A DNA stretch of 64,000 nucleotides from an alpha proteobacterium U9-1i (GTDB lineage Bacteria > Pseudomonadota > Alphaproteobacteria > Caulobacterales > Aquidulcibacteraceae): positions 1,178,001-1,242,000 of the forward strand of contig BBSY01000002.1 of the NCBI GenBank assembly GCA_000974665.1. The letters run 5' to 3'. The notes beneath the pieces were generated by a model that was not told where the DNA came from, did not search any database, and was given only the letters and a program-made list of their open reading frames with translations. Positions within the stretch are counted from its first letter, which is position 1. Each line of letters opens with the position of its first letter. Shown in pieces: positions 1-12,086 of the stretch. Both the position numbers and the translations under genes were made by a program.

Positions 1-2
1 GC

Positions 3-218
3 CGGTTCTCGTTTGGCGGGCCCAAGGAGGTCGGCTTGGTGGTGGATGTTGTCCCAGCCAGCAACCCGTTGGCTCGAACCTTGAGCTTTGGTACCATCGG
101 TTACTACAACCCGCTGGCTGCAGAAGACGAACGATTTGAACGCCTATTGCTGAACACGATCGGTTATCTTCGTGAAACGCAGGAGGCTGGAGCCGGCCGA
201 CAGAAGGGTGCGCCTTGA
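3..218 (+). CDS. C-terminal part of an unrecognised protein (cut by window edge)
   Basis: The frame is open from base 3 to the TGA at 216-218, giving 71 residues with no recognised motif. It is probably the end of a gene that begins upstream of the window. Alternatively, a perfect AAGGAGG at 24-30 sits just before TTG 36 and GTG 39, so a separate 60-residue gene is possible. The stop overlaps the TTG start of the SGNH-like gene, so it belongs to the same operon. Function unknown. Confidence 0.5.
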   Translation, partial: RFSFGGPKEVGLVVDVVPASNPLARTLSFGTIGYYNPLAAEDERFERLLLNTIGYLRETQEAGAGRQKGAP

Positions 219-1354
219 TTTGGTTTGAAGAGAAGGGCGTTCAATACGGCAAACGAGCGCCGATTATACGCGCGCCCTTTTCGCGTGGTACACATGCATT
301 AGTGGCGGTGTTTCTGCTGTTGGGCCTTGTTGCGGGTCCCACCTTGATGGAGCGGCTTGCGCCCACAGACCCCGCCCGCATCTATGGTGGAATTCCGGCT
401 ACGTACGGCAACTATGCGACAATCGGGGCGGAAATCGCACGACCGGGCAAGATCGACGTGCTGATCATAGGCGCGTCCGACGCGTGGACCTCGCTGGATC
501 CGCGCATAATCAGAGATCAGCTTCAGCAGCGCTACGGACGCGAAATGCGGGTATTGAACCTCAGCACGAACTGGGGCGGCGATGAAAGGAATGCGCAGGT
601 TCTCGCCGATGTGCTGCGGACGCATGACGTCAGCCTAGTGCTCTTTCCCGAAACCGATGCCGCACCGCTCGCACCGCACGAACTCGCCAAATATTGGTGG
701 CGTGGCGACCTCGAGACAAGCGGCCTGCCGCGGCGCAATCAAGCACAGCTTCAATTGATGAGCATCATCGGCTGGCCTCGCCAAATTTGGTCTCGCTTTC
801 AAACGCCGGCAACCGCGCCGATGCAGGATTCGTATCGTTCGTATTTGCAAATGCAGTTGCAAAACCTGGGCTTTAACGTCGCGCGGACGGGGTGGAAATC
901 CCACAGCGAGCCCAACGAGGCCAGTCGCCGACCGTACGTTGAACTTGACGCTCCGCCGCCGTTGTTGACCGGGGCCGCGCTTTTTTACGGTGGCCCTTCA
1001 GATCAATCGTTTGAGATCCGGCCATCCCCATACACGCCGATGCAGACCACGTTTGTGGTCGCAGCTCGAGATATGACACGTGCGCAGGGGGGCGTGTTCG
1101 CCACGTTCTCAATTCCCACACACTTCTCGTCCGTTCCGTTGGAGCGGCCGTGGATCCGAGACCACGAGGGCGTCACGCGTGATTGGCCCACATTTGGCAT
1201 CTCGCAAACCAATCTGTTCGCCGGCTATTCGTTCGACCAAATGCTGAACTTCTACGGCAACGAAAGCCATTTCAACGAAAGCGGCGCCCGCGCCTTCACG
1301 AGAGCGACGCTGCCGGCCATCGAGGAACTTTATGCTCAAGCGAACGCTGACTGA
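215..1354 (+). CDS. SGNH-like membrane-anchored protein of an MBOAT O-acylation system
   Basis: This 379-residue protein has one hydrophobic segment (about residues 28-48) and then an extracytoplasmic domain. GASDAW near residue 87 resembles the nucleophile block of SGNH esterases and of AlgX/AlgJ-type acetylation proteins. HFNESG near the C-terminus resembles the His-containing final block. In that family the soluble domain takes an acyl group from a membrane acyltransferase and transfers it to a polysaccharide. Position two genes before an MBOAT gene supports the same role here. The TTG start overlaps the previous stop. Substrate unknown; catalytic assignment is inferred from motifs only. 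Confidence 0.7.
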   Translation: MIWFEEKGVQYGKRAPIIRAPFSRGTHALVAVFLLLGLVAGPTLMERLAPTDPARIYGGIPATYGNYATIGAEIARPGKIDVLIIGASDAWTSLDPRIIRDQLQQRYGREMRVLNLSTNWGGDERNAQVLADVLRTHDVSLVLFPETDAAPLAPHELAKYWWRGDLETSGLPRRNQAQLQLMSIIGWPRQIWSRFQTPATAPMQDSYRSYLQMQLQNLGFNVARTGWKSHSEPNEASRRPYVELDAPPPLLTGAALFYGGPSDQSFEIRPSPYTPMQTTFVVAARDMTRAQGGVFATFSIPTHFSSVPLERPWIRDHEGVTRDWPTFGISQTNLFAGYSFDQMLNFYGNESHFNESGARAFTRATLPAIEELYAQANAD

Positions 1355-1475
1355 GCTGAGCGCTTCTATCGCAATCGCCGTGGTGGCGCTGCTCGCGGTC
1401 GCGGGGATGGAGACGTTGCCATCGTATTTGATGGACTACCTGCTTCGCGCAGGGCTGGTCTACCAAGGCTACTAG
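1332..1475 (+). CDS. 47-residue single-pass membrane peptide between SGNH and MBOAT genes
   Basis: A short ATG frame starts inside the last 23 bases of the SGNH-like gene and stops at TAG 1473-1475, one base before the MBOAT ATG. It encodes a positively charged start (MLKR), one strong hydrophobic helix of about 17 residues rich in Ala/Val/Leu, and a short Tyr-rich tail. The tight packing on both sides is what an operon gene looks like, and without it the operon would have a 122-base gap. Small membrane subunits accompany other MBOAT systems (DltX with DltB), which is the analogy used. I do not recognise the sequence itself. Confidence 0.6.
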   Translation: MLKRTLTELSASIAIAVVALLAVAGMETLPSYLMDYLLRAGLVYQGY

Positions 1476-1476
1476 G

Positions 1477-2742
1477 ATGGACAACATCCTCCGCGAGTTG
1501 GTCAACTTGTCTGTGCTTGTGCAGGGTTTGGCGTTCGCCGAATTGCTCCAAGCCGTGATCGCTCTCTCTGCGTACATTGTGCTGGGTAATGCGATCCTGC
1601 GGCCAAGCTACTCGCTTCGCCTGAAAGCGGCGCTATTCGCCGTTCTGAACATCACGGCCGTATATGCTTTTTTCTTTCAGGAGAACTTTGCGTGGCCCAT
1701 TGTCTATGAGCGTACGCGGTTCCTATCGTTTGCGGCATACTTGGCGTTTGGCGCGCTTCATTGGTTCTTAGTGGACGCGGTCGGACGTTGGCGTTCAACG
1801 CCTTGGGTTTACTGGCTCGCGCTCCTGTTTCCGATTGCACCGCTTGTCGTGGTCAAGTTCGAGACTGCATGGCATCTGATTGGGTTCTCCTACATGGCCT
1901 TTCGAATGGCCCAGGCGGCGTTCGAAAAGCGCAGAAAGCCCGATCTCGAGCTCAGCTTGTCAAACTATCTCGCGTTCTTGTTTTTCCCGCTGACGATCCC
2001 GATCGGCCCGATCAGTCCGTTCGCGTACTTTTCGCGTGGTGTTGGCAATGGCGTCGCGCCGAGCCTTCTGAGCATGGCCCGCGGATTGGCGCGCATCGCG
2101 CTCGGTTACGTCATGCTTAGGTTTTTGGCGACGCTGTCGTTTCAGCTTAGCTTCGGAGGAATGTGGTCGGATGGCTTTAAGCATGGTGTCGGCGACGTGC
2201 TGATAGCGTCGTACGCTACGCTGGCTCACCTCTATTTCAACTTCGCCGGCTTCACCCACATTGTTATTGGCGCCTCGGCGCTGGTGGGCATTCCAGTCAA
2301 GGAAAATTTTGATAGTCCGGTTTTGTCCCGCAGCATCAAAGAATTCTGGAACCGATGGCACATTACGCTCTCGGAATTTGTCCGCGATCTGGTTTATACG
2401 CCGCTCGCGGTTAGCCTAACACGGGCCTTGGGCGCGCCGTTCGCACTTCCCGCCGCGATTTTCGCGGCGATGGTGACCTTCACGATCATTGGCGTATGGC
2501 ACCAATTCTCACTTGGCTTTCTATTGTTCGGCGTCATGCATGGGATTGGCTTCAGCGTTAACGTTGTGTTCGACCAGTTTTGGCGTCGCGGCGGGCGGGC
2601 GACAGGGGTGTGGGCGGCGCCGCGGGCGGGTCTGAGCTGGCTTCTAACCATGACCTATATCGCCCTCTCCATGGTCTTCATTGAATTCCCGACAATGGAG
2701 CAGGCGCAGGCCGCTTTGACTGCCTTTGAGCCCCGCTGGTAG
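1477..2742 (+). CDS. MBOAT family membrane-bound O-acyltransferase
   Basis: A 421-residue polytopic membrane protein. The hallmark FWNRWHITLSEFVRDLVYTPL-type block near residues 287-307 and the later GVWHQFSLGF...MHGIG segment, with its invariant His, match the DltB/AlgI branch of MBOAT proteins. These move an acyl group from a cytoplasmic donor across the membrane to an extracytoplasmic acceptor. It starts one base after the 47-residue membrane peptide. The neighbours make an exported glycan the likely acceptor. The acyl group is not deducible from the sequence; the FkbH-like and MaoC-SDR genes downstream hint at something other than plain acetate. Confidence 0.9.
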   Translation: MDNILRELVNLSVLVQGLAFAELLQAVIALSAYIVLGNAILRPSYSLRLKAALFAVLNITAVYAFFFQENFAWPIVYERTRFLSFAAYLAFGALHWFLVDAVGRWRSTPWVYWLALLFPIAPLVVVKFETAWHLIGFSYMAFRMAQAAFEKRRKPDLELSLSNYLAFLFFPLTIPIGPISPFAYFSRGVGNGVAPSLLSMARGLARIALGYVMLRFLATLSFQLSFGGMWSDGFKHGVGDVLIASYATLAHLYFNFAGFTHIVIGASALVGIPVKENFDSPVLSRSIKEFWNRWHITLSEFVRDLVYTPLAVSLTRALGAPFALPAAIFAAMVTFTIIGVWHQFSLGFLLFGVMHGIGFSVNVVFDQFWRRGGRATGVWAAPRAGLSWLLTMTYIALSMVFIEFPTMEQAQAALTAFEPRW

Positions 2743-2767
2743 AGTGCGTTTCAACTAAGGGCCTGTC

Positions 2768-4678
2768 GTGACGCATTTGCCGTGGCTGCCGCCAAAGCCG
2801 GACGATTTCCGAACGCGCGTCCGCGCGTTGGGCGAGCACGAGCACGTCGGGCAATTTATCCAGACGCTAGCTTGGCACGATCTCGACGACAGCGCCGCCG
2901 TTCTGCTTTCGAGGGAAATCCGCAAGCTGCGCGACACAGGCCATTCGCTAGCACCTCTTGCGGCCTGCAAGTTGGGCGTATTGGCGAGCGCCACGTTCGA
3001 TCTGGTCGCGGACGTACTGCCGGCGTCGGCCTCGCGCCATGGTGTCGATCTTGAGATTATCACCGCGCCTTACGATCAGGTGATTCAGCAGGCGCTCGAT
3101 GCCAACTCAGAAATCAATCGCGCGGAATGCGATGCGGTGCTTTTGGCGATCGACCATCGCTGGCTGCAACTGGATCGCCCTCAGCTTACAGACGAGTCCG
3201 CCCGCATGCACGTCGCGCAGGCTGTTGAGCGCGTGAAAACCGTCGCGAAAGCGCTTCGAGCTGCTGGCGCTGCGCCGATACTGCCAACCATCGCGACACC
3301 TCCAGACTTTTTGTTCGGCCATATGGATCGGCGCGTAAGCGGTTCGCCGCGCGCCATGATTGATGTGGTGAACCGGCAAATCGTGTCGCTCACCGCTGAG
3401 CTGGGCGGCTACGTATTGGATGTTGCGGCCCTGGCGGAGGGGGTTGGAGTCGCGGCATGGTTTTCGGCCTCCCACTGGAATCTTTACAAGCTGCCGTTCG
3501 CCGCCGAGTTTGGTCCGATCTACGCGGACGCGGTTGGTAGGATTCTAGGTGCGGTGCGCGGCAAGGCGCGCAAGTGCCTAGTCCTCGATCTCGACAATAC
3601 CCTGTGGGGCGGCGTCGTCGGCGACGACGGCGTGGAGAATCTAAGGATCGGCCAAGGCAGTCCGGAAGGCGAGGCGCATCTGGCGGTGCAAAGACTCGCG
3701 CTCGATTTGCGCGATCGTGGCGTTATTCTTGCGGTTTGCTCCAAGAATGAAGACGAGACCGCGCGTCGACCATTTCGCGAATTGCCGGACATGCTCATTA
3801 GGGAATCTGACATCGCGGTATTCCAAGCGAATTGGATTGATAAGGCCAGTAATCTCGAGGCGATTGCAAAGACGCTCAACATTGGTGTTGATGCCTTGGT
3901 TTTACTCGACGACAATCCGGCGGAGCGTGCGCAGGCGCGGGCGGCTTTGCCGATGGTCGCCGTGCCCGAACTGCCCGCCGACGTCAGCTTGTTTCCGCAA
4001 TACTTGGCGTTATCCGGGCTGTTCGAATCCGTCAGCTTTTCGGATGAAGACCGGACGCGGGCAGGCTCTTACGCTGCGGAGGCCCACCGCGCCGAGGTCT
4101 TGGCTGGCGCACGCGATCTGGGTGACTATTTGTCGGCGCTTGAGATGGTGATCACGCACGCGCCGTTCGATGCGGTTGGCCGGCAGCGCATCGCGCAGCT
4201 GATCAACAAGTCCAATCAGTTCAATTTGACGACGCGCCGCTACACAGAGGCCGAGATCGCGCAACTGGAGGGTGATGCGAGCACGTTTACGCTTCAGTCG
4301 CGCCTGCGAGATCGCTTTGGCGACTTTGGCATGATCTCCGTCGTCATTTGCCGGCCCTGCGAGTTTCAAAGCTCCTTGGCATGGGAGATCGACTCCTGGC
4401 TCATGAGCTGCCGGGTGTTGGGGCGAAGCGTTGAGGAAGCAATGCTCTCCGAGGTGGCGGAGGCGGCGCGTGAAGCCGGTGTTCGCTATTTGCTCGGTCG
4501 CTACAAGCCCACGGCTAAGAACGGAATGGTCGCGGGGCATTATAAAAAGCTGGCGTTCCGTCAAATCGCTGAAGAAGCCGACGCTACGGCTTGGGTTCTC
4601 GACGTGGATGAATATCGGGCTCCCGCTCTGCCGCTCAAGATCGTTCGCGCCTCCGCGTTAGAGAGTAGAGGCTCGTAG
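2768..4678 (+). CDS. HAD-IIIC family protein, FkbH-like
   Basis: 636 residues, GTG start. The middle carries the HAD motif DLDNTLWGG (about residue 272), with SKNEDE and DDNPAERAQ further on, which is the signature of the FkbH/HAD-IIIC family. The N-terminal ~240 residues and a C-terminal GNAT-like region (about 440-610) flank it. Characterised FkbH proteins load a glyceryl unit from 1,3-bisphosphoglycerate onto an acyl carrier protein; many others in glycan loci have no known substrate. No carrier protein gene is visible in the window. The stop lies one base before the methyltransferase ATG, so the two are cotranscribed. Confidence 0.85.
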   Translation: MTHLPWLPPKPDDFRTRVRALGEHEHVGQFIQTLAWHDLDDSAAVLLSREIRKLRDTGHSLAPLAACKLGVLASATFDLVADVLPASASRHGVDLEIITAPYDQVIQQALDANSEINRAECDAVLLAIDHRWLQLDRPQLTDESARMHVAQAVERVKTVAKALRAAGAAPILPTIATPPDFLFGHMDRRVSGSPRAMIDVVNRQIVSLTAELGGYVLDVAALAEGVGVAAWFSASHWNLYKLPFAAEFGPIYADAVGRILGAVRGKARKCLVLDLDNTLWGGVVGDDGVENLRIGQGSPEGEAHLAVQRLALDLRDRGVILAVCSKNEDETARRPFRELPDMLIRESDIAVFQANWIDKASNLEAIAKTLNIGVDALVLLDDNPAERAQARAALPMVAVPELPADVSLFPQYLALSGLFESVSFSDEDRTRAGSYAAEAHRAEVLAGARDLGDYLSALEMVITHAPFDAVGRQRIAQLINKSNQFNLTTRRYTEAEIAQLEGDASTFTLQSRLRDRFGDFGMISVVICRPCEFQSSLAWEIDSWLMSCRVLGRSVEEAMLSEVAEAAREAGVRYLLGRYKPTAKNGMVAGHYKKLAFRQIAEEADATAWVLDVDEYRAPALPLKIVRASALESRGS

Positions 4679-4679
4679 T

Positions 4680-5615
4680 ATGTCCGTGGATGATGAGCTG
4701 ACGAAGCTTTTGAGTGGTTATCCTAGCCTCCTGAAGATCGTAGCGGCGCAGATCGAACAGACGCCTCGCCACAAGGACTTTCTACGCCATCGTTTTCTTG
4801 CTGCAGTCGCGAATGAACTCGCTCTCTGCGAACGGTTGGCCAGAAGCGTTCTCGTGCTCGCCGGATCGAATTTGCACGACTATCTCAAGGCATACGATTT
4901 CATTACGCGCGTCAGTCTGGAAGAGGAGATTTTCTTCCGTCGCAACGATCGATACCGCCTGACATCATTCGCGGAAGCCAACCGGGAGGTCTATTCCAAC
5001 CGCCCCTTCATGCGCGAATACATGCGCGGTCTTTTGCTCAGTCAGATTTACTGGTCGAACCACACCCGCTCGATGGACTTTTTCGAGTCAAGTTTTCTGC
5101 CGTTGCTAAGCCAAGGAAGCGCACTGCTCGAGATCGGGCCTGGGCACGGTTTTTTCATGGCTTCAGCGTTGGCAAGAAATTGTCTCGGCGTTGTATCTGG
5201 CTGGGATATCTCGGAGGCCAGCTTAGAAGAAACGAATGCGGCGCTTGCGTCTTTGGGATACCGGTCGGGCTTTTCATTGGCGCTCAGGGATATCTTTGCG
5301 CCTGGTCCAGAAAAATTTGACGCTGTCGTTATGTCGGAAGTGCTGGAACACCTGGAAGAACCAGACTTAGCGCTGAAGGCAGTCCACGCCTTGCTGCCGC
5401 GAGGTGGGCGCCTGTTTGTCAACATTCCTATTAATAGCCCGATGCCTGATCACATCTACTTGCTGAGATCGCAGGCGGAAGCCACGGCCCTCGTCGAGGG
5501 CGCCGCATTCAAGATAGACAAGGCGGCCCTGTTCCCCGGCGCGAATTATTCGCTGGAACGTGCGCTGAAGCATTCGATTACGGTATCAGTTTGCATGATC
5601 GCGACCGCACTGTGA
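4680..5615 (+). CDS. class I SAM-dependent methyltransferase
   Basis: 311 residues. An N-terminal ~140-residue helical region is followed by a Rossmann methyltransferase domain with motif I LLEIGPGHG (about residue 152) and a later VMSEVLEHLEEP block, typical of Methyltransf_11/23-type enzymes. It sits between the FkbH-like and MaoC-SDR genes, with the next ATG inside its stop. An O-methyl transfer onto the acyl unit or a sugar is plausible; the acceptor cannot be read from the sequence. Confidence 0.85.
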   Translation: MSVDDELTKLLSGYPSLLKIVAAQIEQTPRHKDFLRHRFLAAVANELALCERLARSVLVLAGSNLHDYLKAYDFITRVSLEEEIFFRRNDRYRLTSFAEANREVYSNRPFMREYMRGLLLSQIYWSNHTRSMDFFESSFLPLLSQGSALLEIGPGHGFFMASALARNCLGVVSGWDISEASLEETNAALASLGYRSGFSLALRDIFAPGPEKFDAVVMSEVLEHLEEPDLALKAVHALLPRGGRLFVNIPINSPMPDHIYLLRSQAEATALVEGAAFKIDKAALFPGANYSLERALKHSITVSVCMIATAL

Positions 5616-7060
5616 TGTCTACCGGTATCAAACCAATGGGGAGAACGGTTCGGCGCTTTACCATGGCGGATCAGCTGGCCTTCGCCGAGGCGACAGGCGA
5701 TCGAAATCCGCTCCATCTCGATGCTCATTATGCCCGAAGGACACAAGCGGGTGCACCCGTGGTCCACGGAATGCACTGCGCGTTGTGGGCGCTGGAGATG
5801 GTGTTTTCGCGCCCTAAGAGTCATTGGCGCCCGTCGTCCATCAGTGTCCAATTCAAAAAATTCGTGTTTCTTGATACCGATGTTGAGCTTGACATTGAAT
5901 GTAACATCGAGACGCGAACAAAGCTCATCGTGCGACGTGGCGAGACAATCGTCTGTGCCATTACGATGCTTCGTAATCAGGAAGCGGCGACCGTAGATTT
6001 GTCACGCTCCGAGGGGGCATGCGAAGGGACGCCGAGCCGGCCGCGGGAGCTCACCTGTGAAGCGGCAGCTGGGCTCAGCGGCCGATTTTGTTACGACGAC
6101 ACGGCCGCGACGCTTTTTCCCGCTGCGTCCGGCGCGCTTGGAGAACGTAGGATAGCCGGCTTGGCTGCGCTTTCCACACTAGTGGGGATGGTTTGCCCGG
6201 GGCTTAATTCGCTCTTCTCATCGTTTAGTGTCGTGTTTTCCAACGTCTTAGGCGAGACGGCACCCATTGAGTGGTCCGTTGTCAATGCGGACTCTCGGTT
6301 TCAACTGCTAAGCTTAAGCATCTGCGGGCCCGGTTTTTTAGGAACGGTGGATGCGTTCTTTCGAGGCGCACCTGTTGAAACCGCTTCCATGGATGAGTTG
6401 GCGCGCCTCGTCGAGCGCGATGAGTTTGTGGGCCAACGCGCGTTCGTTGTTGGCGGGGCCAGGGGACTAGGCGCCGCCATTGTAAAGTTATTGGCGGCGG
6501 GCGGCGGTCAGGTTGTATTCACCTACGCCAGCAGCGGCGCAGAGGCCAATGCGTTGGTTTCCGAGGTGGCCGGGTTTGGCCGCGGAAGCGCGACGGCGTT
6601 AGAATTCGATGCGCGCGGGCAGCCGTCTAAAGCATTGATGGTCGCCGCGAAGTCGGGCCTTTCGCACTTGTACTATTGTGCGACGCCGAAGATTTTTCGG
6701 CAGATCGGCGTCGGGTTTTCGCCGAGCATCTTTGCGGAGTTCGCGGAGATTTATCTCGACGGGTTCGCGAACACCTTGCGCATCCTGGCAAGCGCCAAGA
6801 CGGCCGATGCTCCGCTCACTATTATCTTTCCCTCGACGATCGCCATCGAAGAAAGGCCGCCGGGGCTAACGGAGTATGCCATGGCCAAAGCCGCCGGTGA
6901 AGTTCTGGCGGCGGATCTGGGACTTTCGCTGGGCGCACGCGTGTTTGCGCCCCGATTGCCCCGAATGCTCACAGATCAGACAAATTCGGTGCCTCCGATC
7001 CCAGCGCCCAGTGCCGTTGACGTCATTCTGCCCATGCTGCGTGCAGCTTACACCAGGTGA
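5615..7060 (+). CDS. MaoC-like dehydratase / short-chain reductase fusion
   Basis: 481 residues from ATG 5615, which overlaps the previous TGA. TTG 5591 would add 8 residues. Residues 1-140 carry the MaoC hot-dog signature (FAEATGDRNPLHLD and GAPVVHGMH). Residues ~140-265 could be a second, degenerate hot-dog. Residues ~270-480 form an SDR domain with the nucleotide loop GGARGLGAA and a Ser...YAMAK catalytic pair. This combines 3-hydroxyacyl dehydration/hydration with ketoacyl reduction, activities normally on separate proteins. In this operon it probably tailors a carrier-bound acyl group for the acyltransferase; that role is inferred. Confidence 0.85.
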   Translation: MSTGIKPMGRTVRRFTMADQLAFAEATGDRNPLHLDAHYARRTQAGAPVVHGMHCALWALEMVFSRPKSHWRPSSISVQFKKFVFLDTDVELDIECNIETRTKLIVRRGETIVCAITMLRNQEAATVDLSRSEGACEGTPSRPRELTCEAAAGLSGRFCYDDTAATLFPAASGALGERRIAGLAALSTLVGMVCPGLNSLFSSFSVVFSNVLGETAPIEWSVVNADSRFQLLSLSICGPGFLGTVDAFFRGAPVETASMDELARLVERDEFVGQRAFVVGGARGLGAAIVKLLAAGGGQVVFTYASSGAEANALVSEVAGFGRGSATALEFDARGQPSKALMVAAKSGLSHLYYCATPKIFRQIGVGFSPSIFAEFAEIYLDGFANTLRILASAKTADAPLTIIFPSTIAIEERPPGLTEYAMAKAAGEVLAADLGLSLGARVFAPRLPRMLTDQTNSVPPIPAPSAVDVILPMLRAAYTR

Positions 7061-7104
7061 CGTCGGCGTGTGTTCCTGCGACAACGCAGGCTGCTGGTTT
7101 CGGA

Positions 7105-8157
7105 ATGTCAGACAATCGGATCACAACAATCGTCGGGGCGCGGCCCCAATTCGTAAAGGCGGCTGCGGTGTCGCGTGTCTTGCGTGCTGAGGGGGTCGCG
7201 GAGCGACTGATCCACACCGGCCAGCACCACGACCGTGCCATGTCCGATGCTTTCTTCACCGAGTTGGAGATTTCCCCGCCCGCGCTCAATCTGGGCATCG
7301 CAAATCTGTCGCACGGCGCGATGACGGCGCGGATGCTCGAAGCGCTCGAAGCGGCTTTGATCGCCGATCGACCACGTGCGGTCCTCGTTTATGGTGATAC
7401 GAATTCTACGCTCGCAGGCGCGCTTGCTTCGGCGAAGTTAGGCATCCCCGTCGTGCATGTAGAAGCGGGCATGCGCTCAGGACGGCGCGATGTGCCCGAG
7501 GAGATCAACCGCATCGTCGTCGATCACTTAAGCGCGTTGCTACTTACCTCAAGCGAACACGCGCGCCGCAATTTGGAACGGGAGGGCCTTGTGGAGCGCG
7601 CGCGCCATGTCGGCGACGTGATGTATGACGTAACTCTGTTCGCAGGCGCACGCGCCCTGGAAGTATCAGGTATCGTTGAGCGCTTGGGACTGCGCTCCGG
7701 CGGATTTCAGGTGCTGACGCTGCACCGTGCGGAAAATGTCGATGACCCGGCGCGTCTGGCGCAATTACTGCGTTATGTGGCCGACAACGCGGACGGGAGG
7801 CGGATTGTATTCCCTGTTCACCCGCGCACGGCGGAGAGACTGCACTCTTCCGATCACGCCCTTGGTGAAGTTACACTCACCGAGCCGCTGGGGTATTTTG
7901 ATTTCCATCGGCTGCTAGCCGAGTGCGCCAGCGTGCTCACCGATTCTGGCGGCGTGCAGAAGGAAGCCTATTTCCACCGCAAGCCTTGCGTCACGCTTCG
8001 GGACGAAACGGAGTGGGTAGAAACGATCGATGCAGGATGGAACCGGCTTTGGACGTCGAACAGCTATGTTCGTCCGCGGCGCGACATTGACGATTATGGC
8101 GACGGCCATGCCGCCGAGCGGGTGGCGGCGGCGATCTGCGATCTGGTGAAAAGCTAA
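7105..8157 (+). CDS. wecB: UDP-N-acetylglucosamine 2-epimerase, non-hydrolysing (WecB type)
   Basis: 350 residues from ATG 7105, which places GARPQFVK near residue 10 as in the family. GTG 7057, overlapping the previous stop, would add 16 residues with no resemblance. Visible family blocks are HTGQHHD, VEAGMRSGRRDVPEEINR, PVHPRT and LTDSGGVQKEA. The enzyme interconverts UDP-GlcNAc and UDP-ManNAc in the cytoplasm, giving precursors for ManNAc or ManNAcA glycans; WecB-like members also act on other 2-acetamido sugars. Last gene of the + operon; it overlaps the converging asparagine synthase by 4 bases. Confidence 0.93.
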   Translation: MSDNRITTIVGARPQFVKAAAVSRVLRAEGVAERLIHTGQHHDRAMSDAFFTELEISPPALNLGIANLSHGAMTARMLEALEAALIADRPRAVLVYGDTNSTLAGALASAKLGIPVVHVEAGMRSGRRDVPEEINRIVVDHLSALLLTSSEHARRNLEREGLVERARHVGDVMYDVTLFAGARALEVSGIVERLGLRSGGFQVLTLHRAENVDDPARLAQLLRYVADNADGRRIVFPVHPRTAERLHSSDHALGEVTLTEPLGYFDFHRLLAECASVLTDSGGVQKEAYFHRKPCVTLRDETEWVETIDAGWNRLWTSNSYVRPRRDIDDYGDGHAAERVAAAICDLVKS

Positions 8158-10067
8158 ACCCTCGTTCCGGCCCTGGCGCCTTGCCAACGCGGCGCTTGCG
8201 CCAGATTGCGCTGCCAAAGCTCTAGGCTGAGCAGGCCCCAAGTCTTCCGCGAGAAAGGTGCGCTGCCGCTAAAGGCGCGACGCACCTTGTCGCGGTTCAT
8301 GTAAGCGCCGTTGCCCGCGTTCGCGAAGTGGTCCTCCGCGAAGTCCCTGAGCTCATTCTTGAACCAATCGACGAGCGGCACGGGAAAGCCCATCTTGTCG
8401 CGCCGCTGCGCGATCTCAGCCGGGATCACGTCGTGGAACGCGTCCTTCAGCATCTGCTTTGAGCGGCCACCCTGGAACTTTACATCCGCCGGCGCGGTCG
8501 CCGCGAATTCAACCAGCGGGTGATCCAAGAGCGGAACGCGCGATTCAAGTCCATGCGCCATGCTCATGCGGTCTTCGACATGCAGCAGCGCCGGCAGCAG
8601 GTGCTTGAAGTCGAAGTGCGTCATCTTGTCGAAATAGGCTTCCTTGCCGACATTCTCGCCGTTGAACTCGGTACGGAACGTTTCGAACACTTCCTCCATT
8701 GGCAACTCATTCCACGCTACCTCGTCGCGCATATCGACCGCGCGGTTGATCAAGCGAAAATAACGCGCGTCAAGTTCCCCGAAGAGACCCTGTTCCCAAA
8801 ACGTCGCGAGCAACGGCTTGTATTCTTGCAGCATCGGCAGTTGCGGAATGATAGACTCGATCGTGACGACGAAGTTGCCGTTCTTATAGGTTCCGTCGAT
8901 CGCGGCTTTGATGCATTGTTCGAAATAGGCGATGATATAGCGGGCATAACCGCCAAAAATTTCATCGCCGCCTTGGCCGCCCATAGCCACTTTCACGTGC
9001 TGCGCGGCGAGCTTTGCTGTCATGTATTGCGGGAACGAGCCAGGGCCGGCGATCGGTTCGTCGAGATGATGGATCACATCGGCGATCGACGTGCGGAAAT
9101 CGTCGGGGCGGATGTCGATCTCGCGCAGGCGCCCGTTGCTCGCGCGCGCCGCGACGGCGGCATAGGCGCTTTCATCGCAGGCCGGATGCGCCTTGAACGC
9201 GCCGTGGAAGAGATCAAGCGGTGCGCCGGCTTGCTTGCACGCAAGCGCGGCCACCAAAGACGAATCCACGCCGCCAGACACATACGCGCCCACGGGCGTG
9301 TCGCTACGCAGATGCAGCCGGATCGAGTCGGCCAACAACTCGCGCAACTGCTCTCGAAAAAAATGCGGGGTGTGGGTCTTGTCGATGGTGTAGTGCACAT
9401 CCCAGTAGCGCCGTTCGGCGACGCGCCCGTTTTCGATGACGAGCGTGTGCGCGGGAGGTAATTGGCGTACGCCCTTCAGCAGCGTGTCGCCGCTGAGCGT
9501 GAACTGAAACGTCAGATATTCGGCCAACGCCCGTGGGTTCACGTCGAGCGATGGCAAGAAGGGCGTAAGCGCTTTGATCTCCGAAGCGAAGTAGAGAGCG
9601 CCGCCAACGATGGCGTAATAGAGCGGTTTGATCCCAAAGCGGTCGCGCGCGGCGAACAAGCGCCGCGACTTTGGCTCCCAGCGCGCGTAGGCCCACATGC
9701 CCCTAAAGTGGTGGAGCGCTTCATCGCCCCATGTGGCGTGCGCGGCGAGGATCGTCTCTGTGTCGCTGGTGCTGGTGAAGCGCCAATGCGGCCCGAGCGC
9801 TTCACGCAATTCCGGATAATTGTAAATCTCGCCATTGTGAACGAGCACCGCTCCGTCGGCGCCGATCATCGGCTGCGCGCCAGTCGGCGAAAGGTCTATG
9901 ATCGCCAGCCGCAGATGTGCGAGGCCCGCCGTGCCCGACGGATCGATCCAGAACCCCTCGCCATCTGGTCCTCGATGCGCGATTTGGGCGGCCATGAAGC
10001 GCAAGCGCTCTGGCAAGTCTGGAATGGGCGTGTTGTCGAGCGCGATGACGCCAGCAATGCCGCACAT
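8154..10067 (-). CDS. asnB: asparagine synthase (glutamine-hydrolysing) family amidotransferase 1
   Basis: 637 residues. It starts MCGIAGV, so Cys2 is available as the glutamine-amidotransferase nucleophile. The synthase domain carries the ATP-pyrophosphatase loop SGGVDSS (about residue 265) and GGQGGDEIFGGY. The family makes asparagine from aspartate, but members in O-antigen and capsule loci (WbpS type) amidate sugar carboxylates. Position inside a glycan locus, next to a paralogue, favours the second role. The start lies 12 bases downstream of the paralogue's stop, so the two share an operon running leftward. Confidence 0.92.
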   Translation of the reverse strand: MCGIAGVIALDNTPIPDLPERLRFMAAQIAHRGPDGEGFWIDPSGTAGLAHLRLAIIDLSPTGAQPMIGADGAVLVHNGEIYNYPELREALGPHWRFTSTSDTETILAAHATWGDEALHHFRGMWAYARWEPKSRRLFAARDRFGIKPLYYAIVGGALYFASEIKALTPFLPSLDVNPRALAEYLTFQFTLSGDTLLKGVRQLPPAHTLVIENGRVAERRYWDVHYTIDKTHTPHFFREQLRELLADSIRLHLRSDTPVGAYVSGGVDSSLVAALACKQAGAPLDLFHGAFKAHPACDESAYAAVAARASNGRLREIDIRPDDFRTSIADVIHHLDEPIAGPGSFPQYMTAKLAAQHVKVAMGGQGGDEIFGGYARYIIAYFEQCIKAAIDGTYKNGNFVVTIESIIPQLPMLQEYKPLLATFWEQGLFGELDARYFRLINRAVDMRDEVAWNELPMEEVFETFRTEFNGENVGKEAYFDKMTHFDFKHLLPALLHVEDRMSMAHGLESRVPLLDHPLVEFAATAPADVKFQGGRSKQMLKDAFHDVIPAEIAQRRDKMGFPVPLVDWFKNELRDFAEDHFANAGNGAYMNRDKVRRAFSGSAPFSRKTWGLLSLELWQRNLAQAPRWQGARAGTRV

Positions 10068-10079
10068 CAGCCCATCACC

Positions 10080-11978
10080 CTAGAGCGCCATACCGTAGGC
10101 TTTGCCCCAGACGCCGAACACGAGAATGCGCCAGAGCGAAAAATCGAACGGGCGCGCCCCATCGAGCATTTGGCGCGCGTATTGGCGCGTTGCGTCGGCG
10201 GCGAGCAGGTCCGGATAAAGCGCAAGCGTATCCTCGATGCCGGCCTCCACGGCCTTCCGCATCGGCCCTTTGAACCATGCTTCCTCCGGAGTTGCAAAGC
10301 CGAGCTTGTCGCGGCGCTGCAGAACCGGCATGGGCAATATGTCGGCCATCGCGCGCCGTAGTACACGCTTGGTGTCGCCACCGACGATCTTGTGTTGATG
10401 CCCAAGTCGGAGGGCGAATTCGACGAGCCGGTGATCGAGAAATGGCACGCGCGCTTCGATGCCGTGCGCCATCGAATTGCGGTCCTCATACCTCAGTAGC
10501 ATCGGCAGATTGGTCGTGCGCGCCAGCAGCACGCAATATCCGCCAAGCGAACGCGGTATCGCTTGGCCCACGTGCGCGGCCGCTTGGGCGAGGGAACTGC
10601 CTTCACGCGGCTCGTGCTGCGCCAAAAGCGCGCTGCCCATCCAGTCCGGTGCTGGCGTAATGGCTGCATTCGGCGGCATGAGAAATCGCCGTAGCACCGG
10701 CACCCGGCTTGTGTAGGGCGCAAGCTGCGCGCGCCAGCTGAGACCGTGCCATGCCTTGCGCTCGTTCAGCGTCTGTATGAGTTCGATCACCTCCAATTGG
10801 CGGATGAGGCGCGCATAATGGAACTGGAAGCAGCCGTGGTATCCGCCCAGGATTTCGTCAGCTCCTTGACCATCGAGCATCACTTTCACGCCGAGCTGAC
10901 GCGCCCTCTCAAACACGCGGTATTGAGCGTGGATGCTCACCGAGCCGTAGGGCTCGTCTTGGGTCCGCACTATGGTATCGACGTCGCTCATCACAGCGTC
11001 CGGATCGAACGTCACGCGTTCGGAGGTAAAGCCAGTTGCCCCGATCACTTGATTGATGAAGCTGGTTTCATCAACGGCGGTGCCCGGAAACACCGCACTG
11101 ATGGCGTTGAGCTTCTCCGCGCCTGGCGGCCAGCTCAGCGCTTGCGCGCATACGATAGACGAGCTGTCGAGTCCGCCCGACAAGCACGATCCCACGCGCA
11201 CGTCCGCGCGCATGTGCAGTCGGATCGAGTCGAAGAAGAGCTCGCGGAAGCGTTCCGCCGCCTCCGCTTCGCTCCATTGAACGCCATCCGGGAAGGGCGG
11301 GGACCAATACGTGCTGATCGGTAAAGCGTCGCCTGGCCGCCATGTGTTCAAATCGAACTCGACGCAATGGCCAGGTTCAAGGTTGAACGCATCCGCGAAC
11401 ATCGTTGACGGCAGATGGTCGGTGATGCCGTTGGCGAGGAAATTGTGTGCGCGGTCGAGGTTCACGCGCCGGCCGAAGCCAGACAGATCAAGCAGTTGCT
11501 TGATCTCGGAGCCGAACGCCACGCCGTGCGGCGATGCGTGATAGACGATCGGCTTGATGCCAAGCCGGTCGCGCGCCAGGAACAGCCGCTTTTCCTTGTC
11601 GTCCCAAAGCGCGAACGCGAACATGCCGACGAGACGGTCTAGCGCGCCGCGGCCCCAGTTGCGGAAAGATTCCAGCAGCACCTCGGTGTCGGATTCAGTG
11701 CGGAACGTCACGCCCCTGGCGCGCAGCTCCTCGCGCAGTTCGAGGTAATTGTAGATCTCGCCGTTGAACGTCAGCCAATGGCGCCCGTCCGTCGATTGCA
11801 TCGGCTCGGACGCGCGCTCACTGAGATCGATGATGCTGAGGCGGCGGTGGCCGAGCGCCACCGGGCCGGCCGGGCTCTCAAACACGCACCACCCTTGCCC
11901 GTCCGGCCCGCGGTGGGCGACAGCTTCGATGTGCTTGGGATCAGGTGGAAAGCCGATCGAAATGTAGATGCCGCACAT
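10080..11978 (-). CDS. asnB: asparagine synthase (glutamine-hydrolysing) family amidotransferase 2
   Basis: 632 residues from ATG 11978, chosen because it gives MCGIYI with the required Cys2. The TTG at 11984 would bury the nucleophile. The synthase half carries LSGGLDSSS and DGQGADEILGGY. It is clearly divergent from the adjacent 637-residue copy, so this is not a recent duplication. Both are likely glutamine-dependent amide-forming enzymes of sugar or peptide substituents. First gene of a two-gene leftward operon whose promoter must lie in the divergent interval 11979-12162. Confidence 0.9.
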   Translation of the reverse strand: MCGIYISIGFPPDPKHIEAVAHRGPDGQGWCVFESPAGPVALGHRRLSIIDLSERASEPMQSTDGRHWLTFNGEIYNYLELREELRARGVTFRTESDTEVLLESFRNWGRGALDRLVGMFAFALWDDKEKRLFLARDRLGIKPIVYHASPHGVAFGSEIKQLLDLSGFGRRVNLDRAHNFLANGITDHLPSTMFADAFNLEPGHCVEFDLNTWRPGDALPISTYWSPPFPDGVQWSEAEAAERFRELFFDSIRLHMRADVRVGSCLSGGLDSSSIVCAQALSWPPGAEKLNAISAVFPGTAVDETSFINQVIGATGFTSERVTFDPDAVMSDVDTIVRTQDEPYGSVSIHAQYRVFERARQLGVKVMLDGQGADEILGGYHGCFQFHYARLIRQLEVIELIQTLNERKAWHGLSWRAQLAPYTSRVPVLRRFLMPPNAAITPAPDWMGSALLAQHEPREGSSLAQAAAHVGQAIPRSLGGYCVLLARTTNLPMLLRYEDRNSMAHGIEARVPFLDHRLVEFALRLGHQHKIVGGDTKRVLRRAMADILPMPVLQRRDKLGFATPEEAWFKGPMRKAVEAGIEDTLALYPDLLAADATRQYARQMLDGARPFDFSLWRILVFGVWGKAYGMAL

Positions 11979-12086
11979 GGTCAAGCCACGAGGAGGGGGG
12001 CCGCGCGGGCGGCGGCAAGGCTGGGTCGTCGGAGCGTCAACAAATATCCTGCACGTGGCTTAAACGGGGTGCTTTATAGACCGACC

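Follow-up and report, generated by a model that had tools for sequence, protein, structure and literature searches.

What acyl group is handled by six closely coupled genes of the alpha proteobacterium U9-1i, and where would it be placed? The genes lie at positions 215-7060 of a 64,000-nucleotide stretch (here called the window; G000:C2:1178001-1242000) of this 4.05-Mb genome of five contigs, and encode, in order, an SGNH-like protein, a micropeptide, an MBOAT-family acyltransferase, FkbH, a methyltransferase and a MaoC-SDR fusion (Table 1). We consider it rather probable that the operon encodes a relay of Dlt type, which moves an acyl group across the membrane and is fed by an FkbH cassette; in this reading we infer all the reactions, lactyl as the product, the point at which methylation occurs and the acceptor.

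A preliminary description of the window had read these genes as an acyl-tailoring operon decorating a glycan. The six genes are indeed real, coupled and co-directional: in the list of open reading frames (ORFs) all stand on the plus strand, overlapping or at most 25 bases apart. A Pfam/NCBIfam scan with curated models, in which the MBOAT, FkbH, the methyltransferase, MaoC and SDR all scored above cut-off, bore out the family calls made for these four proteins. The interpretation is supported overall, with the glycan decoration and the exact acyl group still predictions. The present analysis adds three points: the micropeptide appears to be a DltX-type protein, the MBOAT is DltB-like, and FkbH and MaoC-SDR form a cassette.

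Table 1. Genes of the operon and its immediate neighbors, in window positions.
Feature	Position	Strand	Evidence
DMFA2_C-domain protein, 3' end	1..218	+	full ORF G000:C2:1176296-1178218
SGNH-like membrane-anchored acyltransferase (putative), DltD/PatB analogue	215..1354	+	S88/H352 motifs, weak fold match
Putative DltX-type micropeptide, 47 aa	1332..1475	+	hydrophobic segment, C-terminal LVYQGY (Tyr44)
DltB-like MBOAT, no fused C-terminal motif	1477..2742	+	PF03062, TIGR04091, PDB profile, alignment, tree
FkbH glyceryl-loading enzyme (predicted)	2768..4678	+	TIGR01686, HAD-IIIC DLDNT motif D274-T278
Class I S-adenosylmethionine (SAM) methyltransferase	4680..5615	+	Methyltransf_12 above curated cut-off
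MaoC-SDR fusion (dehydratase + FabG-type reductase)	5615..7060	+	MaoC_dehydratas, adh_short above cut-off
WecB-like UDP-GlcNAc 2-epimerase, next polysaccharide-cluster gene	7057..8157	+	start inside MaoC-SDR end

The putative relay proteins

Judged by its sequence, the MBOAT is DltB-like. It matches PF03062 at 58.8 bits (cut-off 27), the sole match to that model in the genome at E 0.001, and its top NCBIfam model is DltB (TIGR04091, 3.1e-48). A PDB search with profile A1 returned, at E 0.001, DltB 6bug (4.9e-61) and 8jem only. Residues R293-W294-H295 and W341-H342 are invariant in alignment A1, and the C-terminus, ALTAFEPRW, has no fused shuttle motif. In a quick tree of 70 rows, with the SH-like approximate likelihood ratio test (SH-aLRT) as its only support, seven of the eight FkbH-linked split MBOATs (window, L004, L005, L006, L129, L130 and L131) fall in one clade (SH-aLRT 100), while 17 DltBs from dlt loci form a separate one (SH-aLRT 100). 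A split with SH-aLRT 99 sets the dlt DltBs, the FkbH-linked clade and L112, L132, L133, L134, L137 and L138 against 39 motif-fused MBOATs and L136; the branches of L112, L133, L137 and L138 are long.

The micropeptide has a single hydrophobic segment preceded by Lys/Arg, and the Pfam and NCBIfam scan at E 0.01 gave no match to it. Its gene overlaps the 3' end of the SGNH gene, with GAGGAA immediately before the ATG. According to passages in PMC12148441, the acyl group of the carrier protein is passed through DltB to the tyrosine of the DltX shuttle motif, FxYxxF, and then taken by DltD. With its one hydrophobic segment and an LVYQGY end that fits this published motif, the micropeptide resembles an acyl shuttle of the DltX type. 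Its relatives end in LVYQGF, LVYKGF, AVYQNF, LVYREF, LVYKNM, LVYKIF and FEYRVF. We filtered all six frames of the eight loci having FkbH and a split MBOAT (138,218 bp) for ORFs of 30-110 aa with at least 14 consecutive hydrophobic or small residues and the motif at the very end; eight passed, one in every locus and always at the operon. The same filter, whose letter sets were chosen after the relatives had been seen, gave a mean of 0.33 on shuffled DNA (three shuffles, preserving base composition only). The filter was checked on 77 further loci from the MBOAT scan described below, nearly all Gram-positive dlt, as a positive control: 72 of them have a match ending YxxF (83 filter matches altogether in 1,441,363 bp). 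A literature match to "DltX" in Bordetella hinzii proved to be an abbreviation for lung transplantation.

Because its serine and histidine blocks (GASDAW and NESHFN) are conserved in relatives and its fold gives a weak match, the first protein of the operon was assigned to the SGNH type. S88 and H352 are invariant in the six-row alignment A4. Another alignment of this study, A6, with three rows, was left out for its poor quality. For the SGNH-like protein, neither Pfam nor NCBIfam gave a match at E 0.01, and a PDB sequence-profile search retrieved glycosyltransferases only, at E 0.6 or worse. Foldseek, run on a low-confidence model (mean predicted local distance difference test score, pLDDT, 55), placed DltD 6o93 at rank 2 (E 6e-3) and PatB at ranks 4-6 (about 2e-2); the rank 1 match, 9mpy (5e-4), is unrelated and was rejected.

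With DltB- and DltX-type parts at hand, the operon might serve Gram-negative D-alanylation with a DltA encoded elsewhere in the genome, which does hold 17 matches to the DltA model (TIGR01734); in another genome (L137) an AMP-binding protein adjoins a split MBOAT. However, none of the 17 exceeds the cut-off (best 116.1 against 559.85 bits), all are encoded outside the locus, and the loader of the operon is FkbH. We set D-alanylation aside for want of a DltA in the locus and regard it as highly improbable.

The predicted loading cassette

FkbH scores 275.5 bits against TIGR01686 (cut-off 146.65) and 59.3 bits, also above cut-off, against TIGR01681, and its HAD-IIIC DLDNT motif is invariant across four alignment rows. 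The product expected of such an enzyme is D-glyceryl. The methoxymalonyl-ACP pathway (FkbG-K) includes the acyl-CoA dehydrogenase FkbI and the 3-hydroxyacyl-CoA dehydrogenase FkbK; that pathway was rejected, as no FkbI/FkbK-type family was found among 19 locus proteins scanned. FkbH-like proteins activate glycerate on acyl carrier proteins (ACPs), as a passage of PMC4979870 has it, and a passage of PMC7901079 gives 1,3-bisphosphoglycerate as the substrate of the family, writing the loading as "1,3-bpg + ACP -> D-lactate-ACP". A search for an ACP just upstream of the window had been suggested, and one is encoded there, 2.4 kb away (G000:C2:1175370-1175612, 80 aa, with a DSL serine), matching PF00550 at 28.7 bits (cut-off 20.8).

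The methyltransferase has relatives in the FkbH loci L131, L132, L188 and L190 and two generic PDB matches (about 4e-4); it is predicted to O-methylate the presumed substrate, the carrier-bound acyl group. For the MaoC-SDR fusion, the ATG at 5615, which overlaps the methyltransferase stop, is a likelier start than the TTG at 5591 that opens the ORF. Numbered from that TTG, D37 and H42 of MaoC and S415, Y429 and K433 of SDR, which we take to be catalytic, are invariant in 12 rows. The MaoC-SDR profile has 293 PDB matches; of the 60 listed, 33 bear the name 3-oxoacyl/ketoacyl-ACP reductase or FabG.

To what extent FkbH and MaoC-SDR go together was surveyed in 398 genomes of the same phylum, many of them related to one another. 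FkbH (profile A2, E 1e-60) gave 75 matches in 51 genomes. MaoC-SDR fusions (profile A3, E 1e-60) were matched 30 times in 27 genomes, every one of which belongs to those 51; FkbH lies within 10 kb of 23 of the 30 fusions and at 17.8 kb from one, and the contigs of the other six show no FkbH match. The co-occurrence has a hypergeometric probability of 4e-28, a figure that ignores both the kinship of the genomes and the bias of profile A3, which was built from FkbH loci only. The surroundings of 46 of the 75 FkbH matches, picked non-randomly (7 known loci, 19 top-scoring, 20 from lower scores), were examined with our own profiles, partly built from the same proteins, and with Pfam for a few. The 39 regions beyond the known loci contain an ACP in 33 cases, MaoC and SDR in a single ORF in 15, and a methyltransferase of the operon's kind in 5. 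FkbH with MaoC-SDR forms a cassette of its own.

Recurrence of the gene set

The window MBOAT was used to scan 84,980 species genomes, and the best 80 of 495 loci were kept. The top three come from outer-membrane phyla, namely metagenome-assembled genomes of a Chloracidobacterium (L004), a Pyrinomonadaceae member (L005) and a Verrucomicrobia member (L006), and share the order FkbH-ACP-SGNH-X-MBOAT, where X is the micropeptide; FkbH of L006 is interrupted by a contig end. L005 continues with separate MaoC and SDR genes, both above the Pfam cut-off. In the phylum of U9-1i, profile A1 (E 1e-50) gave 12 MBOAT matches in 11 genomes, with FkbH in seven regions (window and L129-L134), an association that leans to FkbH since four of the five rows of A1 are from FkbH loci. 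The order is FkbH-ACP-X-MBOAT-MaoC-SDR-SGNH in L129 and X-MBOAT-FkbH-ACP-SGNH in L130; FkbH and ACP of these two loci are below the Pfam cut-offs and rest on phmmer against the window and L005 proteins. L132 and L134 combine FkbH, ACP and a MaoC-SDR fusion (in L132, 5.3 kb off on the other strand) with a motif-carrying MBOAT. The set of FkbH, ACP, SGNH protein, micropeptide and MBOAT therefore recurs in Acidobacteriota, Verrucomicrobiota and the phylum of the window. That the genes be conserved together, on which the preliminary description had staked its reading, holds for this set; neither MaoC-SDR nor the methyltransferase is found in all related loci.

A second arrangement has the motif fused to the MBOAT. 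Fused MBOATs stand beside FkbH and ACP in L113, L114, L143-L145, L147, L187 and L189, and two genomes of the window's own genus (G009 and G026) have FkbH-ACP-fused MBOAT. Cultured relatives of the fused kind are Tistrella mobilis pTM1 (MBOAT, ACP, methyltransferase, FkbH), Rhodobacteraceae SC52 (ACP-FkbH-MBOAT-SGNH) and Sinorhizobium meliloti Rm41 pSYMB (L187 5646-10704, an unannotated record), where an MBOAT ending PPFLYQGF stands with a 438-aa protein, ACP and FkbH. Sinorhizobium accounts for 40 of the 79 plasmid records matching FkbH. When plasmids were searched with the MBOAT, 13 records matched, for the most part Gram-positive ones, and none of them covers 80% of the query.

Three further loci were noted. 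In L131 7203-19100 (G178), one region holds MBOATs of both kinds, fused and split, together with FkbH, a micropeptide, two ACPs and two methyltransferase relatives. L112 9128-11354 (G014, own genus) has a DltB-like MBOAT and a micropeptide whose end is VLYQGF, but lacks FkbH; a third protein there starts with a hydrophobic segment and matches nothing in Pfam. L112 would be a relay with another acyl source. L137 6620-10440 (G084, same phylum) encodes in a row a 611-aa AMP-binding protein, a protein with weak SGNH resemblance and a DltB-like MBOAT of the split kind. The 611-aa protein gives an ACP-like match by phmmer and AMP-binding domains only by Pfam, so that L137 is perhaps a Gram-negative DltA-DltC fusion system.

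A proposed pathway and the evidence against it

From family membership and synteny, we hold with high confidence that synthesis of the carrier-bound acyl group and the relay belong together. That the transferred group is a glyceryl-derived C3 acyl is stated with moderate confidence, and that it is lactyl or methoxypropionyl with lower confidence. FkbH would load D-glyceryl from 1,3-bisphosphoglycerate onto the dedicated ACP. The MaoC domain could remove water from glyceryl-ACP, giving pyruvyl-ACP in its enol form, which the SDR domain could reduce. The resulting lactyl-ACP would be the oxygen counterpart of D-alanyl-DltC, and the methyltransferase might add an O-methyl cap to its 2-hydroxyl. 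A dehydratase and a keto-reductase acting in this way on glyceryl-ACP, without chain extension, would explain both the MaoC/SDR pairing and its link to FkbH. The DltB-like MBOAT would then take the acyl group off ACP and place it, on the periplasmic side, on the micropeptide residue Tyr44. The SGNH protein, through Ser88, would pass it on from Tyr44 to form an ester on a surface polysaccharide, perhaps the polymer that the neighboring Wzm/Wzt-like ABC transporter exports. In the loci without MaoC-SDR (L004, L130, L187 and L189), glyceroyl would be transferred instead. With LptD encoded in its genome, the host has an outer membrane.

Several observations weigh against this pathway. On the relay side, the MBOAT is well under the DltB equivalog cut-off (164.9 against 375 bits) and falls outside the Gram-positive DltB clade; L133, the eighth FkbH-linked split MBOAT, is set apart on its long branch; the micropeptide of L131 is on the strand opposite its split MBOAT; and the SGNH protein has an asparagine (N349) where the catalytic aspartate is expected, three residues before the histidine. 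By ORF reading, L129 and L130 lie outside evident glycan clusters, and five of the 12 DltB-like MBOAT regions of the phylum (L135-L139) are without FkbH. On the cassette side, the MaoC-SDR structure model was unusable (pLDDT 33) and was discarded, and phmmer at 1e-4 with the window MaoC-SDR misses the MaoC and SDR of L005, which are thus distant. MaoC and SDR occur in only three of the eight loci with FkbH and a split MBOAT (window, L005 and L129) and hence are not core; L006 ends at a contig edge, and the DNA examined of L004, L130, L131 and L133 has neither. Lastly, only 12 of the 39 FkbH regions chosen regardless of MBOAT contain one, a fused one (L148 starts inside a likely 13th), so the FkbH cassette has other uses.

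The patchy occurrence of MaoC-SDR favors a relay that moves glyceroyl or O-methylglyceroyl itself, with MaoC-SDR employed elsewhere or acting on part of the pool. FkbH, ACP and MBOAT do without it in the DNA examined of the four split loci just named and of L187 and L189 (fused), L-glycerate is present on gellan (passages of PMC9104527), and cyanobacterial O-methyltransferase-FkbH modules are thought, in a passage of PMC10143770, to yield 2-O-methylglycerate. In the window, however, MaoC-SDR overlaps the methyltransferase gene in the same operon, and such fusions accompany FkbH in 27 of 27 genomes. We therefore see glyceroyl transfer as unlikely for this operon, if far from implausible.

The other uses of the cassette raise a further alternative, in which two functions merely sit side by side: the MBOAT and SGNH protein would O-acetylate from acetyl-CoA, while FkbH, ACP, methyltransferase and MaoC-SDR would make, in the cytoplasm, an N-acyl group for a nucleotide sugar. 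The cassettes are separable, as the counts of 15 regions with a MaoC and SDR ORF and 12 with an MBOAT indicate, and the FkbH-domain gene cj1302 is placed by a passage of PMC7099621 within the Campylobacter jejuni flagellin glycosylation locus. This is improbable, as a carrier protein is the known partner of an MBOAT of DltB type and a free-standing micropeptide of DltX type (passages of PMC12148441), and FkbH-ACP with an MBOAT recurs in split and fused branches alike.

Genomic surroundings

Between the ACP and SGNH genes are encoded a membrane-anchored 260-aa protein and the DMFA2_C protein. The latter is dimethylformamidase beta-like, its stop overlaps the SGNH start, and phmmer found no relative of it in the related loci compared (MBOAT-scan, own-genus and own-phylum loci). 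The 260-aa protein (G000:C2:1175635-1176417; L002 15635-16417) has no Pfam match; by eye, a GDPD stretch in it looks like a degenerate SGNH block without the serine.

Further upstream (L002 3861-14105) are two WbuX-type N-acetyl sugar amidotransferases, HisH and AglZ/HisF2, all above cut-off, which are read from their families as acetamidino-sugar genes, and a Wzm/Wzt-like ABC exporter, below cut-off and with a long C-terminal part. By its predicted gene content, this upstream stretch is a surface-polysaccharide cluster. Within the cluster, on the minus strand of the window (8154-11984), lies an adjacent pair of asparagine-synthase-like genes, possibly for sugar-acid amidation.

Comparison with known systems

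With Dlt (DltA-DltB-DltC-DltX-DltD) the operon shares a carrier protein, a DltB-type MBOAT, a separate microprotein with a C-terminal tyrosine and an SGNH-like protein that may correspond to DltD, its ACP being the presumed counterpart of DltC. It differs in having FkbH, with MaoC-SDR and the methyltransferase, in place of DltA, an outer-membrane host, an MBOAT clade of its own and an acyl group predicted to be other than D-alanine. We propose that it works like Dlt and do not class it as Dlt, given the lack of DltA in the locus and the MBOAT score below the DltB equivalog cut-off. PatAB/AlgI-type O-acetylation also has an MBOAT, an SGNH protein and an acyl-tyrosine shuttle motif; there, however, the MBOAT itself carries the motif as a fusion, and the donor of PatA is acetyl-CoA, whereas here a separate micropeptide, an ACP and FkbH are found.

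FkbH loading modules are familiar from polyketides, as in bryostatin with its D-lactate starter. Polyketide and nonribosomal peptide synthetase (NRPS) modules of this kind (tetronates, OocJ, aeruginosin) combine FkbH and ACP with dehydratase-, ketoreductase- and methyltransferase-type activities, which in the operon are separate genes whose product would enter a membrane acyl relay; no ketosynthase or NRPS family was found in the 19 locus proteins scanned. The OocJ domains run dehydratase-methyltransferase-FkbH-ACP and are suggested, in a passage of PMC4552970, to be non-functional there. Glyceryl and lactyl groups are known polysaccharide substituents (passages of PMC4432689 and PMC9104527), and the predicted substituent is of the kind found in gellan and other exopolysaccharides. 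Gellan, however, carries L-glycerate, whereas FkbH is expected to give D-glyceryl; the gellan passages name no loading pathway, and passages of PMC5399355 assign no acyl group to the sanxan acyltransferases. In the open-licence PMC literature, FkbH and lipopolysaccharide appeared together only in a lipopeptide review, which does not imply absence from print.

Passages of PMC12148441 state that, outside Dlt, MBOAT-SGNH systems have neither a carrier protein nor a DltX-like microprotein. The FkbH-linked loci, with both parts present in three phyla, look like counter-examples, and the loader in them is not an amino acid ligase. It is possible, if somewhat short of probable, that they represent a class of Gram-negative "lactyl/glyceryl Dlt" systems, in which a DltB-DltX-type relay would esterify surface polysaccharides with an oxygen isostere of D-alanine made from 1,3-bisphosphoglycerate by FkbH, MaoC and SDR on an ACP, and which would be the missing loading route for polysaccharide glyceryl and lactyl groups. 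If so, surface acylation with C3 hydroxyacids would be fed directly by glycolysis, and these genes would provide a genetic handle on glyceryl and lactyl groups.

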